This document shows, piece by piece, positions 9,118 to 28,078 of a stretch of DNA of 30,037 nucleotides. The stretch's first letter is position 1. Every line of letters begins with the position of its first letter. The stretch covers positions 1 to 30,037 of the forward strand of contig JAGACY010000086.1 in the NCBI GenBank assembly GCA_017613855.1, in the 5' to 3' direction. The notes under the pieces are model-generated. The model was not told the DNA's origin and searched no databases. It saw nothing but the letters and a program-made list of their open reading frames with translations. The translations under genes and the position numbers were made by a program. This DNA comes from Pseudomonadota bacterium. GTDB lineage: Bacteria; Myxococcota; Bradymonadia; UBA4248.

Positions 9118-9196
9118 GCGGGGCCGGAAAGAGGCCCCGCATCGGGGGTAGGCGCGTATTTGCAAAGCAAATAGCGCCGAAGGGGGCTCGGCCCCC
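9118..9196. repeat. Cluster of three GC-rich hairpins upstream of the lipoprotein operon
   Basis: Three adjacent palindromes are visible: GCGGGGCC/GGCCCCGC (9118-9125/9133-9140), GGCGC with TATTTGC/GCAAATA and GCGCC (9151-9178), and GGGGGC/GCCCCC (9182-9196). The middle one belongs to the TAT...ATAC family, read on the minus strand. On the minus strand they lie 77-155 bp before the operon's first start codon, so they could form in its 5' leader. Confidence 0.8.
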
Positions 9197-9209
9197 TGCC
9201 AAAAAAAAT

Positions 9210-9388
9210 AGGCTCTGTTTAACGAGCGTGGAGATTTTGTTCACAAAAGATTGCAATTCTGGCTTGGAGCTTAGAGCTTGGAGCTTAGAGAAAGGATTAT
9301 CCACTCAAAGCTCAAAGCTCAAAGCTCTAAGCAATGAAATGCCAAAACCTAAAGAATATGGCATATCCACGGTGGTAAAACATAGCCT
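9210..9388. mobile_element. MITE-like element, copy 1 (imperfect terminal inverted repeats)
   Basis: The left end (9210-9232, AGGCTCTGTTTAACG...) matches the reverse complement of the right end (9366-9388, ...AAAACATAGCCT) at 19 of 23 positions. Inside lie heptamer-like AGCTTAG/AGCTTGG units facing CTCAAAG units, which extend the palindrome. A related copy is at 12535-12690. There is no ORF of its own and no clear target duplication. It could be a non-autonomous transposon or a structured repeat. Confidence 0.7.
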
Positions 9389-9400
9389 AATGATTAATGC

Positions 9401-9486
9401 AATCAAAGGGCATGTCTAAAGAATTGAGGGTGCATCAGACGATGGGAAAGATGCAAATTTATTGATCTTTAGACATTCCTTTGATT
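9401..9486. repeat. Long inverted repeat with nested hairpin between serC and the lipoprotein operon
   Basis: The arms at 9401-9422 and 9466-9486 share AATCAAAGG and ATGTCTAAAGA and are complementary apart from one mismatch and one extra base. A second stem TGCATC/GATGCA (9431-9436/9450-9455) is nested inside. It starts about 25 bp after the serC stop, so it may end serC transcription, though no T-run follows. Confidence 0.75.
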
Positions 9487-9510
9487 TTGCCATTGCGAAT
9501 TGCGCATTGA

Positions 9511-10608
9511 TTAAGCGTTTTCTTTTGCGAATTTATCCATGAAGGCGATGAGGGCTTTGACGCCGTCGATCGACATGGCATTGTAAATAGAGGCGCGCAT
9601 ACCGCCGACGAGACGGTGACCGGCGAGGTTGACCAGACCGGCAGCAGCTGCTTCGGCAACGAATTTCTTGTTGATGGCGGCGGCTTTGTCGGGATCGGTT
9701 TCTTTGGTCAGGAAGGGGATGTTCATCAGCGAACGGCTGCCCTTGTCGACGGTGGCATGATAGTAGTCGGAATTGTCGAGGTAATTGTAGAGCAGTTCGG
9801 CTTTTTCGGTATTGCGTTTGAGCATGCCTTCGGCACCGCCGTTGGCTTTGACCCAGTCGAGGACGAGGCCCATGACATAGATGGAATAGCAGGGAGGCGT
9901 ATTGAACATCGAGCCATTCTTGGAATGGGTGTCATAACGGAGCATCGTAGGAACAGTGCTGGGGAGGTCTTCGCGGATGAGGTCTTCGCGGATGATGACG
10001 AGGGTCACACCGGCAGGTGCGAGGTTTTTCTGGGCACCGGCATAGAGCAGGCCGAATTTGGTGACATCGAGCGGTTCACTGAGGACGCACGAAGAAATGT
10101 CGGCGATCAGAGGCACATCGCCGGTATCGGGAATGTAACCCCATTTGGTTCCGAAAATCGTGTTGTTCAGCGTGATATGAACATAGTCATAATCGCCCTT
10201 GATTTCGTGAATTTCGGGAATGTAGCAGCAGCCGCGATCGCGCGACGAAGCCACGACTTCGACATTATCCATAAAGCGGCGAGCTTCTTCGATGGCTTTT
10301 TTGGACCATACGCCCGTGTCAACATAAGCAACTTTGCCGGTTTTTTTCAGGTTGAGCGGAATCATTGCAAACTGGAGGCTTGCACCGCCCTGAAGGAACA
10401 GGACTTTGTAATTGTCGGGAACGTGCATGAGTTCGCGGACTTTGGCTTCAACACCTTCGATAATGGGTTTGTATGCATTCGAACGATGGCTCATTTCCAT
10501 GACGGACTGGCCGGTGCCATTGCAATCGAGCATTTCTTTGGCACAGATTTCGAGCACGGATTCGGGTAAAGTTGAAGGACCAGCTGAGAAATTGTAAACG
10601 CGACTCAT
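9511..10608 (-). CDS. serC: Phosphoserine aminotransferase
   Basis: SerC is a cytoplasmic PLP enzyme that transaminates 3-phosphohydroxypyruvate with glutamate to give phosphoserine in serine biosynthesis; the family also serves the pyridoxal phosphate pathway. The 365-residue length is typical. Family features include the N-terminal YNFSAGPSTLPESVL, the FLQGGAS phosphate-binding loop (71-77), ADISSC, and the PLP lysine in YAGAQKNLAPAG (Lys194). The start at 10608 has AAGGAG 7 nt upstream. It is a single gene: upstream is a divergent gap, and downstream a palindromic gap separates it from the lipoprotein operon. No serA or serB lies nearby. A gene-length antisense reading on the plus strand is a shadow. 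The call is firm. Confidence 0.97.
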   Translation of the reverse strand: MSRVYNFSAGPSTLPESVLEICAKEMLDCNGTGQSVMEMSHRSNAYKPIIEGVEAKVRELMHVPDNYKVLFLQGGASLQFAMIPLNLKKTGKVAYVDTGVWSKKAIEEARRFMDNVEVVASSRDRGCCYIPEIHEIKGDYDYVHITLNNTIFGTKWGYIPDTGDVPLIADISSCVLSEPLDVTKFGLLYAGAQKNLAPAGVTLVIIREDLIREDLPSTVPTMLRYDTHSKNGSMFNTPPCYSIYVMGLVLDWVKANGGAEGMLKRNTEKAELLYNYLDNSDYYHATVDKGSRSLMNIPFLTKETDPDKAAAINKKFVAEAAAAGLVNLAGHRLVGGMRASIYNAMSIDGVKALIAFMDKFAKENA

Positions 10609-10725
10609 GATTCACTCCTTACATGAGCAAAAAAAATGGACATTCCAAAACCACTTCAGAATGCCTGTTCCTATTCAAAATGTGCAATGCGCCGTGCGCA
10701 ATTGCCTAATTACAAATCGGTACAT

Positions 10726-10754
10726 AGTAAACTCAAGATGCGAAATAAAGTCAA
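10726..10754 (-). promoter_or_regulatory. Candidate sigma-70-like promoter for serC
   Basis: On the minus strand TTGACT (10749-10754) is followed after 17 nt by TTTACT (10726-10731), about 118 bp before the serC start. The -35 is good and the -10 fair (4 of 6). This is inference from the consensus only. Confidence 0.35.
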
Positions 10755-10841
10755 GCATCATTTGTGCTAAAAACCGCACCATTCCTAGGGTTTGTGTAAT
10801 CCTGTGTGGTTGTGTGTGTGACGTTGTGGGTTTATTTTGGC

Positions 10842-10930
10842 GCGCCTATGCCTGTTGGGGCGACCATCCTGGTCTGCCCCAACAGCATACGGCGCTGCCG
10901 CCGGCCTATGCGCGTGCGCATACGGCCGGC
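10842..10930. repeat. Two TAT...ATAC hairpins in tandem
   Basis: The first (10842-10895) has outer stem GCGCC/GGCGC, then TAT and ATA, one unpaired C, and a long inner stem TGTTGGGGC/GCCCCAACA that encloses GACCA/TGGTC. The second (10900-10930) has stem GCCGGCC/GGCCGGC, TAT/ATA, inner GCGC/GCGC, a 2-nt loop and the same unpaired C at 10923. The stems are unrelated in sequence. Both lie in the divergent gap between serC and the plus-strand lipoprotein. Confidence 0.85.
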
Positions 10931-11016
10931 TTTACCATAAGAGCTGCGGGGTATGCTGCGCGCATCTTCCGTTCAACAAAGCCCCCAAAAAAATTCGAAA
11001 AAAAATTGCACCTTTA

Positions 11017-11045
11017 TTGACTCTAGCAAACCCACTTGCTATGTC
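11017..11045 (+). promoter_or_regulatory. Candidate promoter for the duplicated-domain lipoprotein
   Basis: TTGACT (11017-11022), a 17-nt spacer and TATGTC (11040-11045) preceded by TGC as in an extended -10. It lies about 78 bp before the chosen ATG. A short inverted repeat GGTAC/GTACC (11061-11065/11082-11086) sits in the leader and might be an operator. Confidence 0.45.
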
Positions 11046-11122
11046 TGGCTCACACCCTGGGGTACTATGTAGTTTTAAGAAGTACCTACACATATTTTAC
11101 TTTTTTGAGAGAAGGTCTTGTT

Positions 11123-11968
11123 ATGAGAACGGTTACTCTTTTTTCGCTATTATTGTCTTTTGGCCTCATGATGGGGTGTTCTGACTCGGATTCCGATTCT
11201 AAAGCTTCCGGTTCTGATTCATCGGGTAAGACGTCTGATTTGGCTGGTACAAAGTGCGATGAGAAAGGTGCAATTAAGTGCAAGTCGCCCGATACACCGA
11301 GTCTGGCATATAAGTGTTCCAACGGAAAATGGATTGAGGTCGATTACTCGCAAGTCGCAGATAAAGAGGCAGATGTCTGTGTCGTAATAGATGGAAAGGA
11401 TCAAATAGAGTCTGTCTGTCCTTCGGACTCGGAGGGGAGTCATGCGACACTTCTACCCCACTTCGATCCAGTATGTGCCGTTGCCGAATGCGTGAAGGAT
11501 TCCCGCGGTGTTCTGTATACAAAAGAATACTCACTCGTTTGTGAGAATGGTGGCGAAGTGTCCGGGAATACTTGTGTTTGTGAACCAGGATCGGATTCCG
11601 GTTCTGATTTGGCTGGTACAAAGTGCGATGAGAAAGGTGCAATTAAGTGCAAGTCGCCCGATACACCGAGTCTGGCATATGAGTGTTCCGACGGAAAATG
11701 GATTGAGGTCGATTACTCGCAAGTCGTAGATAAAGAGGCCGATGTCTGTGTCGTAATAGATGGAAAGGATCAAATAGAGCCTGTCTGTCCTTCAGACTCG
11801 GAGGGGAGTCATGCGACGCTTCTCTCCTATATCGCTCCGGTATGTGCCGTTGCCGAATGTGCGAAGGATTCCCGTGGTGTTCTGTATACAAAAGAATACT
11901 CGTTTTCTTGTGAGAAAGGCGGCAAAGTCTCCGGGAACACCTGTGACTGCGAAGCTGGAGATGAATAA
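11123..11968 (+). CDS. Lipoprotein made of two near-identical 123-residue units
   Basis: This 281-residue predicted lipoprotein has unknown function. The ATG at 11123 is preferred to the upstream in-frame start at 11036: GAAGG lies 8 nt upstream and a signal peptide with lipobox LMMGC follows. After a short Ser/Asp linker come two copies of one unit beginning SDLAGTKCDEKGAIKC, with about ten Cys each, that are almost identical at both protein and DNA level. That is the mark of a recent in-frame tandem duplication. It is one of only two plus-strand genes here and faces a small membrane-protein gene across a hairpin. I do not recognise the domain; its Cys spacing resembles the short stalk repeats of the SGNH lipoproteins at 21139-25854 only loosely. 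Confidence 0.9.
   Translation: MRTVTLFSLLLSFGLMMGCSDSDSDSKASGSDSSGKTSDLAGTKCDEKGAIKCKSPDTPSLAYKCSNGKWIEVDYSQVADKEADVCVVIDGKDQIESVCPSDSEGSHATLLPHFDPVCAVAECVKDSRGVLYTKEYSLVCENGGEVSGNTCVCEPGSDSGSDLAGTKCDEKGAIKCKSPDTPSLAYECSDGKWIEVDYSQVVDKEADVCVVIDGKDQIEPVCPSDSEGSHATLLSYIAPVCAVAECAKDSRGVLYTKEYSFSCEKGGKVSGNTCDCEAGDE
11237..11965 (+). repeat. 369-bp in-frame tandem duplication
   Basis: Unit 1 starts at 11237 and unit 2 at 11606 (period 369 bp, 123 codons). Long stretches are identical, including silent positions. Differences cluster in a few codons (for example PHFDPV versus SYIAPV). The array can expand or collapse by recombination without a frameshift. Confidence 0.95.
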
Positions 11969-12006
11969 CGAACTGTATTGGCGATCATCGCCAAAAGCAT
12001 AGAAAA

Positions 12007-12028
12007 GAGACGTTCTGCGGAACGTCTC
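12007..12028 (-). terminator. Intrinsic-type terminator between convergent genes
   Basis: A perfect 9-bp stem GAGACGTTC/GAACGTCTC with a 4-nt loop. Read on the minus strand it is followed by TTTTCT, so it best serves the gene at 12036-12509, whose stop is 7 bp away. It may also stop the convergent lipoprotein gene. Confidence 0.75.
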
Positions 12029-12035
12029 CAAAAGC

Positions 12036-12509
12036 TTAAAACGTCATGTTGAAAACGGCTCCATTGAATGTGGGTGCCACACTGAATGCATAATCCTTCG
12101 TTTTCCATTCATGCAGGAAATAGCCGCCAATACCGAGGCAAATAGCCCCCACGCCTAATGCGACTGCTCCCGCAATACCGAGGGTCATGCGTTTATCATC
12201 ATCTTTATCCATGGTTAATGCGGCAATGCCCATGGCGCTCCCCCCCGCGACGAGCACGCCGCCGGTAACCATCGAGGCAATATACCTGTACCGCAGTGAA
12301 TAATCGTTTTCATAGTAGTAGGAGTTTCCGTCATAATAATACGGGGTTTGATTGTTTTCTGGCGGGTCATCATGGACGATGTTTTGTGTGGAGGGGGATA
12401 CACTGTCGTTATCGTCAGCAAATGCTGCATTGGGAAAAGTTACACTGCCCAGTGCAAAAAATACCACACCACATATAAGCAGCGTCAGAATCATGTTGAG
12501 CTTTTTCAT
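12036..12509 (-). CDS. Small secreted or membrane protein with a Tyr-rich segment, unknown function
   Basis: This 157-residue protein is not recognised. It starts at 12509 with AGGAG 8 nt upstream. Residues 1-31 look like a signal peptide (MKKLNMILTLLICGVVFFALG...AAFA). A polar region with Asn/Pro and a Tyr-rich patch (YYYDGNSYYYEND) follows. Two glycine/alanine-rich hydrophobic helices come next (about 80-98 and 108-130) around a charged loop DKDDDKR, and the C-terminus is short and ends in aromatic Phe. The final Phe and beta-like ending could suggest an outer-membrane context, but the two helices fit the inner membrane better. It is a single gene, convergent with the duplicated lipoprotein gene and ended by the hairpin at 12007-12028. 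Confidence 0.85.
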   Translation of the reverse strand: MKKLNMILTLLICGVVFFALGSVTFPNAAFADDNDSVSPSTQNIVHDDPPENNQTPYYYDGNSYYYENDYSLRYRYIASMVTGGVLVAGGSAMGIAALTMDKDDDKRMTLGIAGAVALGVGAICLGIGGYFLHEWKTKDYAFSVAPTFNGAVFNMTF

Positions 12510-12534
12510 CGTTGAATCTCCTGTTCACAAGAAA

Positions 12535-12690
12535 AGGCTATGTTTGACGCGTGTGGAAATATCGCTCGCAATCTTTTGCAATTCAGACTTAGAGTTTGAG
12601 GCTTAAAGAGGGAGTTAACTACTCAAAGCTCAAAGCGATGAAATGACATGACATCGGAACAATGCACATCCACGCCGGTTAAACAGCTCC
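12535..12690. mobile_element. MITE-like element, copy 2
   Basis: The left end (12535-12557, AGGCTATGTTTGACGCG...) matches copy 1 (9210-9232) at 19 of 23 positions. The right end (12669-12690) is its imperfect inverse complement. Shared interior landmarks include TTGCAATTC, ACTCAAAGCTCAAAGC and GATGAAATG. It lies just upstream of the small membrane-protein gene. The rest of this 339-bp gap (12691-12848) shows nothing I recognise. Confidence 0.65.
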
Positions 12691-12848
12691 AAATAGATGC
12701 TTTGGTTTGAGCGTTTTACTGCTTTATGAACTCGATACCTCAAATGGGGTTTGTGATTCAATGGCTAGTGTTCAAACCTTAGAGGGAGATGTTCTGCACA
12801 ATTTGTGCCAAAAAAACACAGCAGTTATAAAACACATGGATTGTATGA

Positions 12849-13952
12849 TTATTTCCAGTCGGCATCTGCCTTTTTTCCCGATTCATCCATTTTATCGAGG
12901 ATATATTCGGCCATGCCGACATCTTCACGCTCGGTATTGAGGATACGCTTTGGGAGAGATTGGATGTCGATCATGCGCGTAAAATCGGGGGCTACAAGGG
13001 CTGTGATCTGCGCCGGGCCGTTGGGGGGCAAGACAATCTGCACGTAGCCGCCGACGGGCGGCGCACCTAAGAGACTGCGCGGGCCCGACCCAAGCGCAGG
13101 TGCAGCAATCGTGCGCAATTCGCCGATATGTCCCGAATAAAAGATATGATGATGTCCCGAAATATAAATCGTATTCGGCGTTTTTTGCAGCATATCAAGA
13201 AGACGCTGGCTGCCTGCGACCTCCCAGAACTGGGCATAATTGATGGGGGCAAGCGGCAGGTGACCTAAAACCAAAGTAGCTCGTGGGTTTTCGGGCGAAT
13301 TCAGAACCGATTCGAGCCAGTCGATTTGGGGATCATCTTTTGTCAACGAGCGTGTAATATCGAGCGCAATCACGCGGACATTGCGAATGTTGACGCCATA
13401 ATAAAACGGGAAATGACTGCCTTCGATGAGAGGCGCTTTGGGATGGCGATTCTCGAAAGCACGGGCATAAGCGATGCGTTCTACTTCATGCGACGGATAG
13501 ATCGAGGCATCGTGATTGCCGGGTGCAAAGATGAATTCGAGATTGTTGTCAAAGAAGACGTCATCTACCTCGTAATGAAAGCCTTTCCACATGCGGTCGT
13601 AGTCGAGCCCCTGCTTTTGACCGGCGACCAAATCCCCGGGACTGACGACAAAATCGTAGCCTTTGGTAATGATATCCTGCACGGCGGCTTTGACTGACGG
13701 CGAATACCCCACGGTGCCGTAACTCCCGTTGATATCCGAAATCACGGCGATTTTAAGAGTATCGGGGGCCTCAGGCAGTTGGGGAGCCGATGGGTAAAGC
13801 GATGGCTGCGGCTGTTCAACAGCCGGAATTTCCTGTGTCTGCGGTGCTTGGGGGGCAGGTTCAGGAGTGGCCTGAGGAGGCTCCTTGGATTGGCAAGCCG
13901 CAAGGGTGAGACAGGATGCGATGATGAGAGTGGGGAGCTTTGGGGTATGCAT
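12849..13952 (-). CDS. Calcineurin-like metallophosphoesterase lipoprotein
   Basis: This 367-residue protein is predicted to be a lipid-anchored, dimetal phosphoesterase in the periplasm or at the surface. The start ATG at 13952 overlaps the upstream stop codon (TAATG), which indicates translational coupling. The lipobox LAAC gives Cys20. A Pro/Gln/Glu-rich linker (21-64) leads to the catalytic domain, whose metal motifs are all present: ISDINGS (Asp73, with Asn75 in place of the common His), PGD (Asp107), GNHD (145-148), GH (His231) and GHHH (266-269). The Asn75 variant may mark a subfamily. The substrate is unknown; phosphodiesters, nucleotides or phosphoproteins are all possible. It is coupled to the TPR gene, so the two products may act together. 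Confidence 0.92.
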   Translation of the reverse strand: MHTPKLPTLIIASCLTLAACQSKEPPQATPEPAPQAPQTQEIPAVEQPQPSLYPSAPQLPEAPDTLKIAVISDINGSYGTVGYSPSVKAAVQDIITKGYDFVVSPGDLVAGQKQGLDYDRMWKGFHYEVDDVFFDNNLEFIFAPGNHDASIYPSHEVERIAYARAFENRHPKAPLIEGSHFPFYYGVNIRNVRVIALDITRSLTKDDPQIDWLESVLNSPENPRATLVLGHLPLAPINYAQFWEVAGSQRLLDMLQKTPNTIYISGHHHIFYSGHIGELRTIAAPALGSGPRSLLGAPPVGGYVQIVLPPNGPAQITALVAPDFTRMIDIQSLPKRILNTEREDVGMAEYILDKMDESGKKADADWK

Positions 13953-16941: not shown

Positions 16942-17029
16942 CGCTCATCCATGCGTTAACAAACCATCCTTGGTAAGGCACTGCCAGAGAGATGTGTATC
17001 ACATTATGGCTGGAATATCAAAAAACCGA

Positions 17030-17497: not shown

Positions 17498-17597
17498 TGG
17501 CAATTCTCCATTGGGGTAAAAGCTATGAAAACCAGCTGCGCCTATTGTATGACGATTTATGAGGATTTCGTCAACTATTTGCGTATTGATGATGTTT

Positions 17598-17661
17598 CCC
17601 GGGCTATCGGGCTTTGCCCGATACGCCCGGGTGGCATGGCTATGCAGGCATACGCCATGCC
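17598..17661. repeat. Pair of TAT...ATAC hairpins
   Basis: Hairpin one (17598-17631): stem CCCGGGC/GCCCGGG, TAT/ATA, inner stem CGGGC/GCCCG, loop TTT, unpaired C at 17624. Hairpin two (17633-17661): stem GGCATGGC/GCCATGCC, TAT/ATA, inner GC/GC, loop AG, unpaired C at 17653. The stems are different and perfectly paired, and the core is the same. Confidence 0.9.
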
Positions 17662-17666
17662 ATTTT

Positions 17667-17694
17667 AATGCGGAATTCGGAATGCGGAATGCGG
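17667..17694. repeat. Heptamer array (AATGCGG/AATTCGG), four units
   Basis: Units AATGCGG, AATTCGG, AATGCGG and AATGCGG lie in exact 7-bp phase between the two hairpin pairs. The mixed AATTCGG unit links this array to the AATTCGG arrays at 25871 and 29686. Confidence 0.85.
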
Positions 17695-17713
17695 CGACAT
17701 TTCTACAAAAAAA

Positions 17714-17788
17714 GCGGCTGCGTATCGCGGCGTAAGCCGGGATAGCAGCCGCCCGCAGTCGTATGCCGCGAAGCGGCATAGACGGCGG
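17714..17788. repeat. Second pair of TAT...ATAC hairpins, opposite orientation
   Basis: Read on the minus strand. Hairpin one (17714-17752) has stem GCGGCTGC/GCAGCCGC and inner CCCGGC facing GCCGCG, with one mismatch. Hairpin two (17753-17788) has stem CCGCCGTC/GACTGCGG, with one mismatch, and inner GCCGC/GCGGC with loop TTC. Both keep TAT, ATA and the single unpaired C. They lie 10 bp past the stop of the C39-like gene, where they could act as a 3' structure. Confidence 0.85.
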
Positions 17789-17798
17789 ATTAAAACGA

Positions 17799-19097
17799 CT
17801 AACCGCCATGAATGAGCCAGGCATCGCCTTTGTCTTTTCCGCACTGATGGAATTCGGCGGCAGTCATGTCGAGTTTTTGGCCGCTATGGCCGTTCGAGGA
17901 CCAACCACCGCTATAAGGATCGTTAACAATAACGCGCATTTCCCCATTGCTGGTTTTGTAAGCGCCGGTATTGCAGACGTAATGTCCACCCGACCCATAT
18001 CCAAACACGCCTGTATGATTCTTGGTGCTGATACGGTAGATGGGCATGCAAATCGCGTTGAGGCTGCTCGTCAGGGTATTGTAAAACTGTTCAGTCGAAT
18101 AACCTTTGACGTTGGTATATTTGAAGACATCCGAACCGATAAAATGGTTGAGTGCAACGGCGAGTTTCCATACGACGGTGCCATCGCTGGAATTGGTACC
18201 AGCCTGAGCGGCGACCTGTGCTTCGGTGATGTTGAGACCGCGTGCAGCGAGTGCCATGGCACCCGAAGCGGCACCGCAATTGTAATTGGTATTCTGGCCA
18301 TCGATGGGAACGTCATAAACGATGCCCTGTGCGCCTTCGGGAACTGTTCCTCCGCCTTCGACCTGAACGACTTTGTTGGTCCAGTTGGCGCAGCACCATC
18401 CTTCCTGTCCGTTGAAAATGACGCGATACCACCCGTCTCTTTCTTCGAGTACAGTCAGACGTGTTCCTGCGGGCATTGTGACGAGGACTGTTGAACCATC
18501 GGCAGGCGTCGTCCCGCTTCCTGGTTTGTCACGCAGGTTAAGGGCTTCTGTTGTGATGATATCAAACTGCTCGAACGCGGGCGTGGGCTCTGGTTCTGGC
18601 TCTGGCTCGGGTTCTGGCTCGGGGGTTACGACCGGTTCTTTCGGCTTATAAGTCGTGTACTTGGCATTGACCCAACCATACCCAGTGCCATAACCAATCC
18701 TAATCCACTCGCCATTTTCCTCATAAACACTGACGGTTTTCCCGTTGGTGAGGCCACCGATGCGTGGATTGTCGACACCTGGGCCGCTTCTGACATTGAG
18801 CGCACCACAGGTGACGGTTGCAGTTCCGATGGGATCGTCTTGTTTAACAATCGACCCGCCGGAGGGAGTTTTTCCCGTTGAGGTGCCTGGCTTTTTTGGC
18901 TTTATCGTGGCAGCTTTGGCTGCCGAAATGGCTTTCTGAGTGGCAGAGCCAATCATGGATGTAGCCGATTTCCCCACGCTCTTGTTGGTGTTGTTTTTCT
19001 CGAGCATGGCGTTGTTATTGAGCAGAGATGAAGGCTTGACTTTGAGCAAATCAGACAGCGATTTGACTGCGGACATCTGGTCTTTTGTAATAGCCAT
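17799..19097 (-). CDS. SH3b-SH3b-C39-like cysteine peptidase without signal peptide
   Basis: The protein has 432 residues. The start at 19097 has AAAGGAG 7 nt upstream. Residues 1-70 are polar, helical and Lys/Ala/Ser-rich, with no signal peptide. Two bacterial SH3 domains follow: about 93-150 (GALNVRSGPGVDN...GWVNAKY) and 183-243 (EALNLRDKPG...GWCCANW), split by a (PE)n linker at 157-172. Residues 258-432 resemble a C39-family papain-like peptidase: oxyanion Gln268, NYNCGAASGAMA with Cys274, GGHYVCN with His372, and VNDPYSG with Asp393. SH3b domains usually bind peptidoglycan, so a wall peptidase or amidase-type role is likely. How it leaves the cell is unclear: lysis, a non-Sec route, or an injected effector. 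The assignment is from motifs. Confidence 0.9.
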   Translation of the reverse strand: MAITKDQMSAVKSLSDLLKVKPSSLLNNNAMLEKNNTNKSVGKSATSMIGSATQKAISAAKAATIKPKKPGTSTGKTPSGGSIVKQDDPIGTATVTCGALNVRSGPGVDNPRIGGLTNGKTVSVYEENGEWIRIGYGTGYGWVNAKYTTYKPKEPVVTPEPEPEPEPEPEPTPAFEQFDIITTEALNLRDKPGSGTTPADGSTVLVTMPAGTRLTVLEERDGWYRVIFNGQEGWCCANWTNKVVQVEGGGTVPEGAQGIVYDVPIDGQNTNYNCGAASGAMALAARGLNITEAQVAAQAGTNSSDGTVVWKLAVALNHFIGSDVFKYTNVKGYSTEQFYNTLTSSLNAICMPIYRISTKNHTGVFGYGSGGHYVCNTGAYKTSNGEMRVIVNDPYSGGWSSNGHSGQKLDMTAAEFHQCGKDKGDAWLIHGG

Positions 19098-20020: not shown

Positions 20021-20025
20021 TATTT

Positions 20026-20053: not shown

Positions 20054-20068
20054 AATTGGGATGCAAAA

Positions 20069-20167
20069 TAAAGGGCGACTCTGATGTTCATTGTGCATGG
20101 TATACAAAATTAGCAGTGAGCAGTGAGCAGTGAGCAATTGATTTACAAAACTAAAGGGCGACTCTGA
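20069..20167. repeat. Direct repeat TAAAGGGCGACTCTGA flanking a (AGCAGTG)n array
   Basis: The 16-bp sequence occurs at 20069-20084 and again at 20152-20167. Between them lie three AGCAGTG units plus AGCAATT (20112-20139). These units are partly complementary to the TAACTGC array at 20213-20247, so the gap can fold into a long hairpin. Confidence 0.8.
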
Positions 20168-20212
20168 AGCTAAAATAATCACCATTCTTTAGGAACAACC
20201 TTGAGTACCCCC

Positions 20213-20247
20213 TAACTGCTAACTGCTAACTGCTAACTGCTAACTGC
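20213..20247. repeat. Heptamer array (TAACTGC)5
   Basis: Five exact 7-bp units end 2 bp from the stop codon of the YrdC-family gene. AACTGCT pairs with AGCAGTG of the array at 20112-20139. Confidence 0.95.
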
Positions 20248-20248
20248 T

Positions 20249-20893
20249 CTAAACGATCAATGCCGTTTCAATCTGATTTTGTGAGATGGCACCTTCACGT
20301 TTGATAATGGGTTCACCATCGACAAAATCGATGACGGTGGATGGGGTAGACTGAGGAATATCGCCGGCATTGACGAAGATGCTCACATGGGACATGAAAT
20401 TCTTTTGAATCATGGCGGGGCTGGAAGCACCGTTCTTCTTTTCGCGGTTGGCACTGGAGACGAGCAGGGGACGGTCGAGTTCCTTGAGCAGGCGCAGCAG
20501 CCAGGGCTCGGAGGGAACGCGGACACCGAGTTTCCCGCCGGCTTTGGTCAGGGGCTTTAAAATCGCCGCAGGGATGGTCTCTTCGTTGGGATCAAAGCGG
20601 ATGGTAAGCTCACCGGGCCACAACTTTTGTGCCAGAATCTTGGCTTTGGAGGGAATATTCGAGGCTACAGATTTAAGCGCGGAATAATTTGAAATAAAGA
20701 CGAGAGAAGGGGCTTTGGCTGTGCGATGTTTAGAGAATAACAGGGCGTTGACGGCTTTGGGATTGGTGAGATCGGCAATAATACGGTAACTCGTTTTACA
20801 TGGGATACATACAATGCCACCAGATTCGAGGGCGCTTTTAACGTTGATAAATTCGGATCCCCGCATCATGTCCTGCAATTCTATTGTGCGCAT
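20249..20893 (-). CDS. YrdC/Sua5/YciO-family protein, divergent
   Basis: The protein has 214 residues. The start at 20893 has AGGAG 5 nt upstream. It shows the YrdC-domain landmarks: the SKHRTAKAPS segment with the KxR pair (Lys55, Arg57), LWPGELTIRF (91-100), GVRVPSEP (123-130), SSANR (146-150) and the C-terminal STVIDFVDGEPIIKREGAI. TsaC/Sua5 enzymes make threonylcarbamoyl-AMP for the t6A tRNA modification. The usual N-terminal PTDTxYGL-type motif reads PCKTSYRI here, which departs at positions that normally line the threonine/ATP site. It could therefore be a YciO-like paralogue or a degenerate copy rather than the main t6A enzyme. The gene stands alone between a hairpin-rich leader and a heptamer-filled 3' gap. 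Confidence 0.88.
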   Translation of the reverse strand: MRTIELQDMMRGSEFINVKSALESGGIVCIPCKTSYRIIADLTNPKAVNALLFSKHRTAKAPSLVFISNYSALKSVASNIPSKAKILAQKLWPGELTIRFDPNEETIPAAILKPLTKAGGKLGVRVPSEPWLLRLLKELDRPLLVSSANREKKNGASSPAMIQKNFMSHVSIFVNAGDIPQSTPSTVIDFVDGEPIIKREGAISQNQIETALIV

Positions 20894-20921
20894 ATTTTCT
20901 CCTTAGTTTTTAGGATTCTCC

Positions 20922-20986
20922 GGGGGAGACCTTTTCTTTTGTACCTACTGAAAAGGTTTTCCCCGTACCCCTTTCCAAAAGAAAAG
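20922..20986 (-). promoter_or_regulatory. Two mutually exclusive stem-loops upstream of the YrdC-family gene
   Basis: A 15-bp stem with two G-U pairs forms between 20922-20936 and 20950-20964 around a 13-nt loop. An alternative 11-bp perfect stem pairs CTTTTCTTTTG (20931-20941) with CAAAAGAAAAG (20976-20986) and cannot form together with the first. The position is downstream of the SGNH gene and just ahead of the YrdC-family start, so it could be a 3' processing structure or an attenuator. No U-run follows. Confidence 0.5.
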
Positions 20987-21138
20987 CAATGATTGGAATG
21001 AGACATATCCCATGTCACACCCCATATCAATCAATGTAACGTCAATTGAATGAAATTTCATTACAAAAAAATGCCCAGTGGATTGCCAAAACAATCGCTG
21101 CATATTTCCTGGCGCAGGAATCACTTGTAATGATGTGT

Positions 21139-23196
21139 TTAATAGGCTTTCAATTCGACATCACAATTGGGATCATCGGCCTCGCATTCGACAATGCCCA
21201 TGAGATACTGTCCTGGCTCGGCTGCCCCTGATTTGCCATAGGAATCAACGACGATGTAGTATTCTCCGGCATTCAGATAGCCCTGCATAAAGATATCGGC
21301 ACGTCTAAAGCATTTGTCTGCGGTTATTCCGCCTTTGAGCACATGCAGATCCAGATCGGCATTCTCAGAACTCACGACAAAGATTTTTACACGCGTTTTT
21401 TGAGTGAGGTCGAGCCTGTAATAGTATTCCGGTCCGTATTCGGGGGAATCCTTGCAAGCGGTATAAACGTCTATGAGCGAATTGCTGCTTTTGGCAGTAT
21501 CGGCTAAGTGGGTGTAAGGCAGGCTCGTAATGAGGAATGGGTCGGTCGGATTGCCGGTCCCCTTGAACGGCTCTGCGACATCATCCGGTGCAGAACTATT
21601 GTTCACCACGATATCCCATGATGTCTGCAGCATTTGGATTGACCCCAGATTGCGGGCATTTGCGCCATTTTTAAGTCCCTCTGCTGTAAAGTTGCATGGG
21701 GATCCATTTACACTCTCGTGAACATTATCGTCCCGCAGTCCGTGGCTCGGCAGAGCCATAAAATTATTGTAGGTATCATACCATGGAAGCTGCCTCGATT
21801 CGGCGATGCCGCGGGATATGGCATCAAAAGCGGGAACTGCGAACTGGGGCTGGTCTGCCGCTTTGTCTGCGGGCTTGCGATAGTTCGGGGCAACCCCGGA
21901 AATCAGAGGGATAACACCGGCAGCCATCAATATATCGACAACCTTGCTGACATTTCTGAAATACGTTTGCATGGCTTTGGGGTAGCCTGTGCTGCTTGCG
22001 TAGTAATTGCCGCCGCTCCCCATGTCATTGGTGCCGAATCCAAAGAAGGCAAACCTGGGGTGAATGGCCTGAATTTCTTTTTCCAGACGATTTTCCTTTA
22101 GGACATAGCTCGTTGTTTGTGCACCGACTGCGGTATCAGAATCCCGATTGAAAGAATCGACATCGGCTTGAAAAGCATCAATGACGGCTTGTAATTCTGA
22201 GTATTTATCGAGTGTAACCTTTTGACTGGTCTTGTTGGAGAAACAAGTCATGAATCCATAGTTCCATCCGAGGTCTGTGATATTGGCATCGTAATGGGAA
22301 TCTCCAACCTTCATGAAGACATTTCCTTTTTGGGATGAATCTTTGGCAGCGATTGCCTTCATCTGTGCTGCAACGTATGGCGTAATCGGCGAATGGTAAT
22401 CCTTTATGATGTAGCGCGTCGGCTGGTTCAGATCCTGTTCGGCACATATTTTACCGGATTCGTCGCAGCCATAAGGACATGGTGCTGGGGTACTCCAGAC
22501 GTTGTTCATGCAATTTTTGACATTGCCATCTGTACAGATGGATTCACCATTTTGGCATTCTGCGGTGAGGCAGTCATTTTGTTCAGCATTGCAGCCATCG
22601 GGACATTCCTTGACGACAGACCATGCGTTGCCGGTACATTGTTTGAGTTGTTTTTCCGTGCAAAGCAACTGGCCTTCGGTGCAGTCCGTCGTGAGTTGAT
22701 TGCAATCTGTTCCATCATCATTGCATCCTTCCGGACACGTTATGGTCGGTAAAACCCAGGCACCGTCGGTGCAAGCAGTCTTTTGGTCCCCTTCGCATTT
22801 GTCGGAGCTGCATTCGGCACACGATTTCCCCGAAGGTGCGCAGCCGAATTCACAGGTTTGAGTCTCCCATGTGCCATTTGGGCACGTCTTCATCGTGCCA
22901 TTGGTGCACAGTTCCTCGCCCTGCTGACATTTGGAATCCAGTGGATCGGGTGTTCCACCGGGATCGGGCAGGCAGGTGATTTCCTGGGTGTCACAGCCGT
23001 ATGCGCATGCATCGGTGTTATTCCATTCTCCGGATTCGCATGTCTGCACAAAATTGTCTTTGCATCTGCGATAACCCTCGTGACAACCGGATGGCTTGGT
23101 GGGATCGGACGGTGTGCCTTGCTGTGGTGTGAGGACATCGTCAGAACACGCAGAGAAGCAGAGTATTGCAGAGACAAGGAGTGAGAATTTTTTCAT
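21139..23196 (-). CDS. Lipoprotein with five Cys-rich repeats, SGNH-like hydrolase and PPC-like domains
   Basis: The protein has 685 residues. The ATG at 23196 has AGGAG 7 nt upstream and gives a lipoprotein signal (FSAC, Cys17). Residues 38-251 hold five repeats of about 38-42 residues with the pattern C-x-G-x-x-x-C ... C-x-x-x-x-W ... CP-x-GC ... C. Residues 260-560 resemble an SGNH/GDSL hydrolase: KVGDSHYD (Ser300), FGFGTND (Asn390) and DDNVHES (Asp490, His493). These could supply the Ser-Asp-His triad and oxyanion residues of an esterase or a carbohydrate O-deacetylase. Residues 590-680 resemble a PPC domain (ADLDLHVLKGG, LNAGEYYIVVDSYG). It is probably a surface enzyme acting on polysaccharide or lipid esters. 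Its paralogue lies upstream, 126 bp away. Confidence 0.9.
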   Translation of the reverse strand: MKKFSLLVSAILCFSACSDDVLTPQQGTPSDPTKPSGCHEGYRRCKDNFVQTCESGEWNNTDACAYGCDTQEITCLPDPGGTPDPLDSKCQQGEELCTNGTMKTCPNGTWETQTCEFGCAPSGKSCAECSSDKCEGDQKTACTDGAWVLPTITCPEGCNDDGTDCNQLTTDCTEGQLLCTEKQLKQCTGNAWSVVKECPDGCNAEQNDCLTAECQNGESICTDGNVKNCMNNVWSTPAPCPYGCDESGKICAEQDLNQPTRYIIKDYHSPITPYVAAQMKAIAAKDSSQKGNVFMKVGDSHYDANITDLGWNYGFMTCFSNKTSQKVTLDKYSELQAVIDAFQADVDSFNRDSDTAVGAQTTSYVLKENRLEKEIQAIHPRFAFFGFGTNDMGSGGNYYASSTGYPKAMQTYFRNVSKVVDILMAAGVIPLISGVAPNYRKPADKAADQPQFAVPAFDAISRGIAESRQLPWYDTYNNFMALPSHGLRDDNVHESVNGSPCNFTAEGLKNGANARNLGSIQMLQTSWDIVVNNSSAPDDVAEPFKGTGNPTDPFLITSLPYTHLADTAKSSNSLIDVYTACKDSPEYGPEYYYRLDLTQKTRVKIFVVSSENADLDLHVLKGGITADKCFRRADIFMQGYLNAGEYYIVVDSYGKSGAAEPGQYLMGIVECEADDPNCDVELKAY

Positions 23197-23239
23197 GGGA
23201 GACTCCTGCAATCGTTTGAAGGGAGATACCTATTAAAAA

Positions 23240-23309
23240 CGCGCTGCGTATTGTGAAACAATAGCGGCGCGCATGGCGGGCGTATTTGGCCGCAGGCCAA
23301 AAAGCCCGC
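23240..23309. repeat. Pair of TAT...ATAC hairpins between the two SGNH genes
   Basis: Read on the minus strand. 23240-23271 has stem CGCGCCGC/GCAGCGCG (one mismatch), TAT/ATA and inner TGT/ACA. 23276-23309 has stem GCGGGC/GCCCGC and inner TTGGCC/GGCCAA, with TTT in place of TAT. Both keep the unpaired C after ATA. They fill most of the 126-bp gap between the paralogous genes. Confidence 0.85.
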
Positions 23310-23322
23310 AGCCTAAACAGGA

Positions 23323-25854
23323 TCAATAGGCCTTAATGGCTTCATCGCACCGCTTATCATCACTCAGGCATTCGACGATACCCATAAGATACTGTCCCGC
23401 TTTGTAGGTACTGGCTGTTCCACTCCAAGTATCCACAGAGATGTAATAAGTTCCTGCATTCAACGTTCCCATGAGCAGAATATCCGAGCGTGCAATACAT
23501 TTATCGCCGGCAATACTGTCTTTCAGGACATGAATGTCGACATCGACATCGGAGGCACTGACAGCAAATATTTTAAGCCTGGACTTCTGTTTGAGTTCAA
23601 GTTTGTAATAATACTCGGGGCCGGCTTCGCCTGTATTGTGGCAACTATAGGAGGTAATGGCCTTGTTGGAACTCTTGGACGTATCGGCAGAATGTGTGTA
23701 AGGCAGGCTTGTAATGACGAAGGGATCGGTGCTGGAACCGCTTCCTGTGAAGGGTTCCTCGATGGCATCGGGGGCATTCGCCCCTTTGACGACTGTCTGC
23801 CACGAATGGTAGAGTGCCTGAATGAGCCCAAGATTGCGGACATTTGCCCCATACTGGAGACCATCGGCTGCAAAGTTGCAAGGGGATCCGCTCGAACTTT
23901 CGTGCACACCGTCATCCGTTCTGACGCCATGGTTGGGTAGATTATAAAATGCATTGTACGTGTCGAACCATGGGAGTTGCCTGGCTTCGGCAATGCCTCT
24001 CGAAACGGCATCAAATGCCGTCACGATATAGCGCGGTTGGTCGCGCTGATCGATGGCTCCGCCCCCGATGAAGTTGATTTTCGACTGTGTGCTCATGTTG
24101 GGGGCGATACCCTGGATGAGTGGGATAATGCCGCCGGAAATCATCTGGTCGAGGGCCTTGTTCATCTGCCGGTAATAATCCTGCATGGCCCACGCATATC
24201 CCTGCGCTTTGGTCAGGGAACCATTATAGTAAAAAGAGACTTCATCATAGGTAAAACTGCCGTTGCCGAGATCGTTCGAACCATGGCCAAAGACGGCAAA
24301 CCGAGGATTCATGGCAGTGATTTCTGCAGTCAGATGCGTCGGATTGCCCATAAAGGAATAGTTCGTCGCTTTGCCGCCCACTGCGGCTTCGGAATCCCGG
24401 ATAAACGAATCCTTCGTCTTTTGAAATTCATCAATGGCTGCCTGCAATTCATTGCGCCCATCCAGCGTTACCGGCAAACTGGTCGTGGTTTTGGAAAAAC
24501 AACGCATAAAGCCATAGTTGAGTGTGCCTCCGTTGATGGCTGCATCGTAGTGTGAATCGCCCACCTTCATGATGACATCATTGTTTCTGGATGAATTCTT
24601 GGCAGCAATGGCCTTCATTTGGGCAACGACATAAGGTGTGATTGGCGAGTTGTGGGTACTCGATTTCATCAGATAGCGCGTGGGCTGGTTGTTGTTGATT
24701 TCGGTGCATTTCTTGGAGGCGGCATCACATCCGTCGGGACATTCCTGTTTTTTAGTCCATGCATTATTGCTGCAGATCTGGAGGGTATTTCCCGAACATT
24801 GGAGTGCATTCTCGTCGCAGACCTTGGCAATGCAGTCTTTCTTTTCCGGATCGCATCCGCTGGGACAGTCTTTGGATTTGGTCCATGCATTGCCCGTGCA
24901 GATCTGGAGCTCATTTCCCGAACATTGGAGCGCATTCTCGTCGCAGACTTTGGTCATGCAGTCATTCTGTTCGGCATTGCATCCATCGGGACAATCTTTC
25001 ACTTTGTTCCAGGTATTTCCGTTGCATATCTTAACCTGACTTTCGGTACAGACCGTCTGTTCTTCGGCACAGGTCGAACCAAGCGCACAATCGGTGCCTG
25101 TTTCATTGCATCCATTGGGACAGGTGTCGGTTGATGTGGCCCAGACCCCACCCACACAGGCTGTTTTTTGATCACCCTGACATTTGTCTGCGTTGCATTC
25201 TGCACAGGCGTTTCCTGACTGGGCACACCCGAGGGGGCAGTCTTCGGTAATCCATTCCTCTCCCTGGCAGTGTTTCAAAACATTGCCGAAACATTGGATG
25301 CTGCCGTCTTCGCACGCGGTTGCACAGCTTTTTTCATCCAAATTGCATCCATACTGGCAGGGTGAGGTCGTTTCCCAGGTATTGCTGCTGCAGGTCTTTA
25401 TGGCATTGTCATTACAAATGATATCGCCGTCGTTACAAGTCGGAGGCAGTGCACATGCCCTGCCGGACTCATCACAGCCAAATTCACAGTTTTTTTCCTG
25501 GTAATGTTCCTGAATACAAGTTTTTAAAACACCACCGCCGCACAAGGCTGTTCCCGAGGTGCATTCGGGAGCCGTGACAGGGGGATTTACGGGATCATCC
25601 TGGTTGGAATTGCATTGAAGTGTTGCGGAATTGCATCCATTTTCGCAGGTTTTGGACAGGACCCATGCGCGTGATTTGCATTTTTCCAGGTCATTGCCGT
25701 TGCACCTGAGATCGCCGTTCGTGCACAGAGAATCACCGGGCTCTGTCGTGGGAGGATTGGTATCTCCGGGCGTTTCATGATTTGTAATGACCGCACCTTC
25801 GGTACAGGCTGTGAGGGATAAAACCGCCATTAAAAAGATCGCGTAATTCTTCAT
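23323..25854 (-). CDS. Lipoprotein with eight Cys-rich repeats, SGNH-like hydrolase and PPC-like domains
   Basis: The protein has 843 residues and is a paralogue of the downstream gene. Adjacent ATGs lie at 25857 and 25854; 25854 is preferred because it puts GAGG 6 nt upstream, as in the paralogous leaders. Lipobox LTAC gives Cys17. Eight Cys-rich repeats span about 44-383, of which the last two are nearly identical (KVCDENALQCSGN). The SGNH-like part has KVGDSHYD (Ser434), FGHGSND and DDGVHES. The C-terminal PPC-like domain has VDVDIHVLKDS and LNAGTYYISVDTW. Compared with its neighbour it mainly adds three stalk repeats and a few insertions in the hydrolase. The two are likely cotranscribed unless the hairpin pair in the gap intervenes. 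The substrate is unknown. Confidence 0.9.
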   Translation of the reverse strand: MKNYAIFLMAVLSLTACTEGAVITNHETPGDTNPPTTEPGDSLCTNGDLRCNGNDLEKCKSRAWVLSKTCENGCNSATLQCNSNQDDPVNPPVTAPECTSGTALCGGGVLKTCIQEHYQEKNCEFGCDESGRACALPPTCNDGDIICNDNAIKTCSSNTWETTSPCQYGCNLDEKSCATACEDGSIQCFGNVLKHCQGEEWITEDCPLGCAQSGNACAECNADKCQGDQKTACVGGVWATSTDTCPNGCNETGTDCALGSTCAEEQTVCTESQVKICNGNTWNKVKDCPDGCNAEQNDCMTKVCDENALQCSGNELQICTGNAWTKSKDCPSGCDPEKKDCIAKVCDENALQCSGNTLQICSNNAWTKKQECPDGCDAASKKCTEINNNQPTRYLMKSSTHNSPITPYVVAQMKAIAAKNSSRNNDVIMKVGDSHYDAAINGGTLNYGFMRCFSKTTTSLPVTLDGRNELQAAIDEFQKTKDSFIRDSEAAVGGKATNYSFMGNPTHLTAEITAMNPRFAVFGHGSNDLGNGSFTYDEVSFYYNGSLTKAQGYAWAMQDYYRQMNKALDQMISGGIIPLIQGIAPNMSTQSKINFIGGGAIDQRDQPRYIVTAFDAVSRGIAEARQLPWFDTYNAFYNLPNHGVRTDDGVHESSSGSPCNFAADGLQYGANVRNLGLIQALYHSWQTVVKGANAPDAIEEPFTGSGSSTDPFVITSLPYTHSADTSKSSNKAITSYSCHNTGEAGPEYYYKLELKQKSRLKIFAVSASDVDVDIHVLKDSIAGDKCIARSDILLMGTLNAGTYYISVDTWSGTASTYKAGQYLMGIVECLSDDKRCDEAIKAY
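24794..25045 (-). repeat. 126-bp coding repeat (42-residue Cys-rich unit)
   Basis: Matching sequence starts at 24794 and 24920 (period 126 bp, 42 codons), each with one copy of the CDENALQCSGN segment. The older repeats further along the gene have the same Cys pattern but have diverged. This suggests continuing stepwise lengthening of the stalk. Confidence 0.85.
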
Positions 25855-25870
25855 CATGTACCTCACTTTT

Positions 25871-25919
<49 letters not shown>

Positions 25920-26069
25920 ATGCAAAACCAGGGGAAAAGCTCAGAATGAATGGAGGAGAATCCACAGGGGCACGCCAGTTCCATCATGTCGGATATCGGG
26001 GATTACAATATCCGCACAAATACTCGGCTACAGTCCCCAGACAATGCATCTGTCACGATGAATATGCAG

Positions 26070-26915
26070 CTACACCTTGGGAACGGAGCCATTCATTATT
26101 TTGATAAAATCGCGAAACCCAAGCGATTCCGCACGTACGGAGGGCGCATATCCCAATTGGGTCAGACACTCCGACCATGCTAGTTTATCGAATCCGTTGA
26201 AACCTGCAAGACTGTTGACGAGTGTTTTTCTTCGCAGTGCAAAGGCCGCATGGACGAGCTTTCGGAAGCATTCTTCTTCGGGTTTGGAAAGCTCCCGTTT
26301 TCGGGGAACAAACCGCAGTACGGTGCTTGTTACTTTTGGGGCGGGTTTGAAGGCTTCGGGCGGTACGTCCATGATGTGCTCTATTTCATGGTAGTACTGT
26401 GAAATTGCCGAAAGTGCGCTGTAATGTTTGGTTCCGGGCTGGGCTAGAAATCTGTTGGCTACTTCACGCTGGAACATGAGCACCATGCCGACGAGTGGCA
26501 GGTCTGCATCGATAAACCGGAAATAGATTTGTGATGCGACGTTGTACGGCAGATTGGAGACGAGTATCGGACGTGCCTGATCATCGGAACAAAAATCGGG
26601 GAGGGCGGTTTCGAGCGCATCTCCGTGAATGACATGAAAATCGGGGATATCCCCGAAAACCTGGGCAATATACTTGGCACAGTGGTCATCTTTTTCGATG
26701 ACTGTCAGGGGACGCCCGAGCTTGAGCAGTGCCAGCGTCAGTGCACCGGCACCCGGGCCGATCTCCAAAATATGAAAAGGCCTCAGGTTGTCTGCTTCGC
26801 GTGCGATTGTACGAGTGATATTCTCGTCAAGCAGGAAGTTTTGCCCGAGGCTTTTTTTGAGACGTCTCTGGAGCCCTTCGACGAGAGCTCCAGGTGTAAG
26901 ATCGACGAGTGACAT
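26070..26915 (-). CDS. rsmA: 16S rRNA (adenine(1518)/(1519)-N6)-dimethyltransferase
   Basis: RsmA (KsgA) dimethylates two adjacent adenines near the 3' end of 16S rRNA late in small-subunit assembly, using S-adenosylmethionine. At 281 residues it is of usual length. The family motifs are present: KKSLGQNFLLD (20-30), EIGPGAGALT (51-60, SAM motif I), VIEKD (72-76), GDAL (98-101), NLPYNVAS (121-128, catalytic motif IV) and FQREVA. The start lies 4 bp after the stop of the PEGA-domain gene and has no clear Shine-Dalgarno, so translational coupling is likely. That links a housekeeping enzyme to an envelope protein of unknown role. Confidence 0.97.
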   Translation of the reverse strand: MSLVDLTPGALVEGLQRRLKKSLGQNFLLDENITRTIAREADNLRPFHILEIGPGAGALTLALLKLGRPLTVIEKDDHCAKYIAQVFGDIPDFHVIHGDALETALPDFCSDDQARPILVSNLPYNVASQIYFRFIDADLPLVGMVLMFQREVANRFLAQPGTKHYSALSAISQYYHEIEHIMDVPPEAFKPAPKVTSTVLRFVPRKRELSKPEEECFRKLVHAAFALRRKTLVNSLAGFNGFDKLAWSECLTQLGYAPSVRAESLGFRDFIKIMNGSVPKV

Positions 26916-26919
26916 AAGA

Positions 26920-27891
26920 TTACTGTGCGCGGCGACGACGTGTAACTGCTAAACCGAGCGCAGACAATAAGGCAAAGATGCCTCCTGCCGTAGATGATGA
27001 GGTGCTGTTCGGGGCTGCGCTGCAGCTCGATTTTTGAGGCGTGGGAATGGTGTATTCCTCGCGGCCTTTCTGCGCGACGACAACGGTCACATCCTCACTG
27101 GCATCGGCACCGCCCAATCGGATCTTGTACGTATCCGCAGGAACTTCACCTTCCCATGGACAGACATATTCTTCGACTTTGCCATCCGAGTGCGTCAGGA
27201 TAAACTTGGACGATCCTTTGGGACATTTTACCCTTAAGAAACCTGCATATTCGATGGTCTGAAGGTCGGGAATGACGATCGTGGCCGTACTTTCAGCAGA
27301 TACATTCGCTGTCTCTTTGCGTGGCTGAAAACCATCTTTGACCGCTGTGATGGGGTAGCTGCCTGGCTGCACATTGCCATAAAATGGGCATTTGAAGTTT
27401 GTCATGCTGGTCAGACCGGTGATTGCCAACTCAACATCCTTCATTTTGCAGGTGATTTCCAGTTTGCCAAACTCTGAGCACTTGGCTTTAAGCGTCTTCA
27501 TGTTTTTCTTGAGCTCTTTATAAATGTCGGCATTCTCTTTTTGAATGTCTGCCGGACGATTCATAAGGATATCATAGTGATAACATGCATTGGCAATATC
27601 TTCGGTGAGCTGGTAAACCCTGCCTAAGGTGTATTCCGTGTACACATCCGATGTACACATTTTCATGGCCTTTTGGCACATCGACAGAGCCTCGGAGTAA
27701 TTTTTTTCACCTGCTGCGTCGGCACATTTACCTGATAAATCGTAAAAGGTCTGCATGTCCTTTTCTGAAAGCGTGCCGCAGTCAATTTCCGGGCGCTCTG
27801 CATACGCAGATATGGGCAGCAGTAAGGCAAAAAGCCCTGCAAGTCCAAAGGCATATCCGTAACTGACGATTTTATGCAAATGATGATTCAT
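26920..27891 (-). CDS. Secreted TPR/PEGA-domain protein with MYXO-CTERM-like tail
   Basis: The protein has 323 residues. The start at 27891 has GGAG 7 nt upstream. Residues 1-31 are a signal peptide (ending ISAYA). Residues 40-150 are helical and TPR-like (EKNYSEALSMCQKAMKMC). Two PEGA-like beta segments follow: GKLEITCKMKD...PGSYPITAVKDGF, and GFLRVKCPKGSSKFIL...PADTYKIRL. The last 36 residues have a Cys, a Ser-rich spacer, a hydrophobic stretch (GGIFALLSALGLAV) and TRRRRAQ. This is the plan of MYXO-CTERM sorting tails, which are thought to be processed for surface anchoring in myxobacteria. The Cys-x-Ala/Ser spacing is not the textbook form. The gene heads the rsmA transcript, with a 612-bp repeat-rich region upstream. 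Confidence 0.9.
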   Translation of the reverse strand: MNHHLHKIVSYGYAFGLAGLFALLLPISAYAERPEIDCGTLSEKDMQTFYDLSGKCADAAGEKNYSEALSMCQKAMKMCTSDVYTEYTLGRVYQLTEDIANACYHYDILMNRPADIQKENADIYKELKKNMKTLKAKCSEFGKLEITCKMKDVELAITGLTSMTNFKCPFYGNVQPGSYPITAVKDGFQPRKETANVSAESTATIVIPDLQTIEYAGFLRVKCPKGSSKFILTHSDGKVEEYVCPWEGEVPADTYKIRLGGADASEDVTVVVAQKGREEYTIPTPQKSSCSAAPNSTSSSTAGGIFALLSALGLAVTRRRRAQ

Positions 27892-28016
27892 GTTAATACT
27901 CCGAATGTGAACGAAACAATAGGCTTAATCCCCATCGTTATCTACTTGTATTGCGCAAAATATGGCTGATGTCAAGTTGGTGGGGTTTGTTTACTGTTTG
28001 GATGCGTTTTGGGATG

Positions 28017-28078
28017 GTGCGGCTATGTGAACATACGCCGCACATGGGCAGATCTATGGCTGCGCCATACGATCTGCC
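28017..28078. repeat. Pair of TAT...ATAC hairpins upstream of the PEGA gene
   Basis: 28017-28043: stem GTGCGGC/GCCGCAC, TAT/ATA, inner GT/AC, loop GA. 28047-28078: stem GGCAGATC/GATCTGCC, TAT/ATA, inner GGC/GCC, loop TGC. Unpaired C at 28036 and 28070. These are the cleanest members of the family: all stem pairs are Watson-Crick. Confidence 0.92.

Follow-up and report, generated by a model that had tools for sequence, protein, structure and literature searches.

Described families of repetitive extragenic palindromes (REPs) are grouped by their tag and by the sequence of stem and loop. IS200/IS605 carries two same-strand hairpins per element; in full elements these flank the transposase gene, and the end sequences are fixed. 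The available part of PMC3733652 describes REP sub-families with alternative complementary stem residues. The accessible sections of PMC8266576 report that the REP of E. coli is bulged midway along its stem and has a C there (C27) that is contacted, and transposases of IS608 and ISDra2 that read unpaired or loop bases. In integron attC sites, according to the part of PMC2727003 at hand, extrahelical bases are recognised where the sequence is not conserved, structure replacing sequence. Here we analyse eleven intergenic hairpins in contig JAGACY010000086.1 of assembly GCA_017613855.1, a stretch of 30,037 nucleotides from a Pseudomonadota bacterium (the window), which keep one bulged core, C-TAT/ATA-C-G, around which the stems are unrelated in sequence. 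We take them, with a probability of roughly 40%, to be a strand-specific, non-autonomous, lineage-specific family of double-hairpin palindromic DNA units that is read through the bulged core and is REP- or IS200-like in its logic.

An earlier note on this DNA had listed the eleven hairpins, and every one of them is present and folds. They are numbered h1 to h11 by position in the window, and the five pairs that they form are called P1 to P5 (Table 1). When oriented alike, all eleven parse as an outer arm ending in C, TAT, an inner part, ATA, a single unpaired C, and the complementary arm beginning with G. The terminal C of the 5′ arm and the initial G of the 3′ arm are found in 11 of 11 hairpins, as are ATA and the unpaired C, and TAT is found in 10, the exception being h9, the single TTT variant that the note had reported. 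Six hairpins lie on the plus strand and five on the minus strand. The core and the outer arms are thus as previously described, but the inner part spans 6 to 37 nucleotides and the description of the inner stem as short is therefore not valid for every hairpin; it fails at h2, where the 37-nucleotide inner part contains two single-base bulges. The statement that the stems stay paired holds overall, with one outer mismatch in each of h7 and h8. A single inner mismatch is present in h6.

Covariation was scored on an alignment of nine hairpins, four of which had their apical parts edited to align. Variation is found at eight of the 12 pair positions, in each case on both sides, and one-sided changes are absent. 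The covariation score was 0.801, compared with a mean of 0.170 after shuffling, and none of 500 shuffles scored as high. Paired cells amounted to 97.2% (96.3% without the edit of h6) compared with 65.2% in shuffled alignments, and the number of pair types was matched by 3 of 500 shuffles. In the eleven native hairpins every one of the 158 pairs predicted for the modelled strand is Watson–Crick, and the complementary strand adds one G-U. The longest string common to any two hairpins is only 5–9 nucleotides in all 55 comparisons. Eleven of the twelve longest common strings contain letters of the ATACG core, and the remaining one (TATGCCTG) spans TAT into the inner stem. No second copy of any stem was found among the eleven window hairpins. 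Within the window, the earlier description of stems that share nothing and yet keep their structure around a fixed core is borne out, although the count of pairs changing on both sides is by itself unexceptional.

Ten of the 11 hairpins form five pairs, all with both members in the same orientation and spaced 0–4 nucleotides apart. No hairpin contains a coding base, in a window of which 13.5% is intergenic by gene calls read from the open reading frames with inferred start codons. Both results agree with the earlier statement that the hairpins lie between genes, usually as same-orientation pairs. A feature absent from that account is the T-tracts that flank every pair. TTT is found on the pair's own strand within 5 nucleotides downstream of 5/5 pairs (background 0.079 at free intergenic positions) and within 9 nucleotides upstream of 5/5 pairs (background 0.166 at the same kind of position), and AAA at either place in 0/5; these tests were picked after the flanks had been viewed, and in P1 and P2 the downstream run is merely three or four T. 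A GC-rich hairpin followed directly by a T-tract is a property of the second hairpins of all five pairs, and not of the first hairpins or of h1. The presence of TTT at both ends of all pairs indicates an oriented unit.

The pairs differ in their relation to the neighbouring genes. Two pairs occupy gaps between divergent genes: P1 has serC on one side and a plus-strand gene on the other, and P5 is upstream of a sigma factor. P2 is antisense to both neighbours; placement is therefore not bound to gene ends. Judged by gene order, P3 and P4, two of the five pairs, would sit at a gene's 3′ end.

Table 1. Core hairpins of the window, with their strand and context (pair order given in the pair's own orientation)
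Feature	Position	Strand	Remarks
h1		9151..9178	-	no core partner; coreless GC-rich hairpins on both sides
h2, P1 first	10842..10895	+	37-nt inner part; 18.4 bits, outside training set
h3, P1 second	10900..10930	+	then TTTACC
h4, P2 first	17598..17631	+	
h5, P2 second	17633..17661	+	then ATTTTAAT
h6, P3 second	17714..17752	-	then TTTTTTT; 1 inner mismatch
h7, P3 first	17753..17788	-	1 outer mismatch; 10 nt past stop codon of gene 17799-19097(-)
h8, P4 second	23240..23271	-	then TTTTTAAT; 1 outer mismatch (G-T on complementary strand)
h9, P4 first, TTT variant	23276..23309	-	12.4 bits, outside training set; 13 nt past stop codon of gene 23323-25866(-)
h10, P5 first	28017..28043	+	between divergent genes
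h11, P5 second	28047..28078	+	then TTTTCTTT

The coreless hairpins on either side of h1 are at 9118-9140 and 9181-9197, and are perhaps its decayed or core-less partners.

The rarity of the hairpins was assessed with a strict rule (CTAT, a gap of 4–46, ATACG, and a Watson–Crick outer stem of at least 5). The rule recovered 8 of the 11 family hairpins in the window, compared with means of 0.01 and 0.025 in Markov simulations of order 1 and order 3 respectively (200 per order, maximum 1). A looser rule recovered the same eight, compared with a simulated mean of 0.43 (30 simulations); applied to 80 loci from other bacteria, 1.46 Mb in all, it gave 20 matches, AT-rich loci being the densest. Strict hairpins with at least one inner pair were absent from 92 loci chosen blind to the motif (1.5 Mb, partly overlapping), and numbered 28 in 183 loci picked by hairpin pattern (179) or by model (4). 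Two hairpin patterns retrieved 88 and at least 120 stretches from viral_contigs, and among the matches listed no locus so fetched held more than one inner-paired strict hairpin. Nine strong hairpins were counted in the window by an independent census; eight of these belong to the family, whole or in part (8 of the 11 members), and one is intragenic.

A covariance model (R1) was trained on nine of the ten high-scoring window hairpins, h2 and h9 being excluded. Under R1, 10 of the 11 hairpins reached 18–36 bits and outranked everything in 63 of 80 genome_contigs loci, which yielded a single match at 15.1 bits. The remaining hairpin, h9, was not reported in the comparison with these loci; with filters off it had an E value of 0.46, and its score is close to that of the best non-family match within the window (11.6 bits). 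In three genome scans R1 gave matches at E up to 0.05 in 1 of 150, 0 of 398 and 0 of 148 genomes; these zeros are weak, because few candidates were scored (49, 18 and 49 per genome, among the rows listed) and there was no positive control. At E up to 1 a single match was obtained in each of 3 of 11 further genomes, and at E up to 10 four genomes that were searched again gave one place each. As the genome scans are weak, we infer rather than observe that the family is lineage-specific. No described RNA family was matched at the hairpins in Rfam at E up to 5, and no description of the core C-TAT/ATA-C-G was found in the titles and abstract openings listed from the open-access PMC literature. BLAST of 27880-28510 gave no plasmid match, and BLAST of 17500-17800 gave one 28-base phage match, covering a tandem repeat.

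We infer from these properties that the bulged core is read by a protein and that the units are mobile or recombining. The unit would consist of a T-tract, hairpin A, a spacer of 0–4 nucleotides, hairpin B and a second T-tract, with both hairpins oriented alike. The protein would read each folded strand through the core, that is the C-G pair, TAT/ATA and the unpaired C adjoining the C-G pair, and pairing would be the sole requirement placed on the arms. The free arms and fixed core suggest that such a protein reads the shape of the hairpin more than its sequence. The likeliest reader would be a transposase or recombinase acting on single-stranded DNA, of the HuH/Y1 type (RAYT, IS200/IS605) or the integron-integrase type, which would disperse the units, or resolve them, as the DNA replicates. 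We favour recognition of DNA over that of RNA, since the arms are exactly Watson–Crick, the pairs are not tied to gene ends, and the two-hairpin unit is oriented with TTT at both ends. GNA loops have special stability. On the complementary strand the triloops are GNA in 5 of 7 cases (binomial 2e-5, noticed after the fact), which hints that this strand folds as DNA; the clue was given no weight, as it was spotted afterwards and fits poorly with the orientation of the T-tracts. The available part of PMC10527192 describes mini-hairpins of extraordinary stability and does not mention GNA.

Several results weigh against this interpretation. No transposase or recombinase family, Y1/HuH included, was found among the 24 window proteins scanned (17 predicted genes and seven other open reading frames in the 30 kb, not all frames), and the linked HuH or RAYT gene that the earlier note had proposed to look for is likewise not among them, the search including Y1_Tnp. 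No GTAG or CGTC tag is present at the feet of the 11 hairpins, and by eye no target-site duplication is evident beyond T-richness; nor was an empty site seen in the window. Copies made by transposition should share their stems, whereas the stems here are unshared. The number of pairs that change on both sides (8) was matched by 57 of 500 shuffles, and the four core pairs are invariant among the nine aligned hairpins and so give no information on pairing inside the core. Finally, terminators too would account for the downstream T-tracts.

Because of these T-tracts, tandem intrinsic terminators are a serious rival, though we consider them unlikely to account for the family. The second hairpin and its T-tract would end transcription, the stems would be free to vary because stability alone would matter, and the core would be an added signal for a protein or for polymerase. 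The GC-rich stems, the TTT that follows the second hairpin in all five pairs, and the start of P3 and P4 shortly past stop codons on the sense strand are all as expected of terminators. The other three pairs, however, have no upstream gene on the same strand, TTT also precedes all five pairs, where termination needs none, and the first hairpins have the same core without a T-tract. The core is missing from an ordinary T-tailed hairpin that sits at 12029-12006(-) where two genes converge, which suggests that termination in this genome can do without the core. In addition, h6 and h8, which carry mismatches, form the better fold when the complementary strand is taken.

A more novel reading, which we regard as doubtful, is that the family is defined by shape only. 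A structure-reading enzyme would act on any DNA hairpin with the C-TAT/ATA-C-G core, and new palindromes would be formed or recruited around that core at each site without any common stem. If true, this would be the counterpart, for dispersed intergenic repeats, of attC-like sequence-independent recognition.

It is improbable, in our estimate, that the hairpins act as RNA, with the bulged C bound by a protein or RNase in mRNA leaders or trailers. A bulged core that is small and fixed, on stems that are free to differ, could suit an RNA-binding protein, and the changes on both sides of 8 of 12 pairs would be expected of a structured RNA. Some G-U pairs are usual in structured RNAs, but there are none among the 158 predicted pairs of the modelled strand; the orientation of the hairpins relative to neighbouring genes is inconstant, and the Rfam search gave no match at them.

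Slightly less credible still is that each palindrome arose afresh where it now stands, through fold-back copying or through the processing of hairpins around a fixed cut site; each copy would then have had its own stem from the outset. This would explain why the stems are unshared across 11 copies, why Watson–Crick pairing is near-perfect, and why one-sided changes are absent from the nine aligned copies, and other intergenic repeats of the window likewise keep a format (a period of 7 or a multiple of it) with unrelated units. However, with 11 copies only, unique stems are indistinguishable from the picture that a genome with many stem subfamilies would give, and the origin of the asymmetric bulge is left unexplained.

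Last, a REP family of the described GTAG or CGTC type is very improbable: the hairpins resemble REPs in their size, in lying between genes and in their close pairing, and since described families also have sub-families with alternative complementary stems (PMC3733652, available part) stem variety alone is not distinctive, but within 10 nucleotides of the feet of the 11 hairpins CTAC occurs at one (touching h1) and GTAG, CGTC and GACG at none, as the earlier note had said of the GTAG-type tag, and the same source describes mostly opposite orientation in many REP families and common G-T pairs, neither of which applies here. One GTAG starts 8 nucleotides downstream of h6.

Among the proteins encoded in the window are three FG-GAP Cys-rich proteins, SerC, a metallophosphatase, TPR, DUF4332, SH3/C39, RlpA and Sua5 proteins, two weakly GDSL-like proteins, an RpoH-like sigma factor, and KsgA, which takes its name from its homologues. 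The FG-GAP proteins are tandem paralogues at 102-9041, the other two being 64 and 54% identical to the first, and the two GDSL-like proteins are adjacent at 21139-25866. For the sigma factor, the few relatives that bear a name are from a Proteobacteria bacterium (a metagenome-assembled genome), Bradymonadia, Myxococcota, Deltaproteobacteria and Bradymonadaceae, and the lineage of the window is probably Bradymonadia/Myxococcota. Among the best 120 of 8000 KsgA homologues, 46 proteins are 55–91% identical, followed by a drop to 44%. A scan of genome_contigs with an alignment of 26 homologues plus the window's own KsgA gave at least 80 loci, those kept being 35–42% identical. In the phylum of genome G001, 20 of 398 genomes passed E 1e-45 with KsgA, and as the 20 matches listed are just 37–45% identical, there is no close relative among these 398 genomes. 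No relative was found in viral_contigs when KsgA, the FG-GAP proteins or the sigma factor served as query.

The window also contains other repeats. Intergenic tandem repeats that recur every 7 nucleotides, or every 14 or 21 as multiples of this, and have unrelated units are found at 1-34, 9262-9290, 9304-9332, 20112-20136, 20212-20248, 25871-25916, 28168-28192 and 29821-29851, and the neighbouring repeats 9262/9304 and 20112/20212 are able to fold onto each other. Longer tandem arrays (78, 110) are present too. A 104-nucleotide direct repeat (28198-28301 and 28308-28411, 88% identity) has two GC-rich hairpins per copy, and a 22-base piece of the first of these had no exact match in viral_contigs. 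A 369-nucleotide tandem duplication (11234-11945, 1.9 copies, 91% matches) lies within a gene starting near 11123.

A family that keeps just a bulged core and leaves its arms free would offer a natural experiment in the recognition of folded single-stranded DNA, or RNA, by proteins. Whole families of such core-only repeats could escape searches that rely on sequence similarity: at least 60 direct-repeat families are reported for the window, and none of the largest 20 is composed of core hairpins.

Among known systems, mitochondrial double-hairpin elements likewise consist of two adjacent short hairpins and are dispersed, but they belong to mitochondria. Intrinsic terminators also have a GC-rich stem followed by a T-tract, to which the window pairs add a fixed core, a second hairpin, an upstream TTT and placement in divergent regions. 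Integron attC sites have the core-site motif GTTRRRY/RYYYAAC, which is present at 0 of the 11 hairpin feet. They differ further in that the window hairpins have a single unpaired base, and no integrase or cassette array was seen in the window; the likeness lies in structure replacing sequence and in strand choice through extrahelical bases (PMC2727003, available part). The Group 2 REPs of E. coli with their TnpA-REP (RAYT) have a GTAG tag and shared stem positions, unlike the window hairpins, which are also paired in the same orientation and have no RAYT among the proteins scanned. The resemblance to these REPs is in the hairpins of 29–37 nucleotides, the irregular mid-stem with a specifically contacted C, and the frequent combination into composite units (PMC8266576, accessible sections). 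The hairpins of the window are 0–4 nucleotides apart and have differing stems, unlike those of IS200/IS605 elements. In IS608 and ISDra2 the Y1 transposase recognises a base of the stem that is unpaired or mismatched, as the same sections of PMC8266576 describe, and features of this type are present here in the same-strand hairpins of 5/5 pairs and in the unpaired C that follows ATA in 11/11 hairpins.

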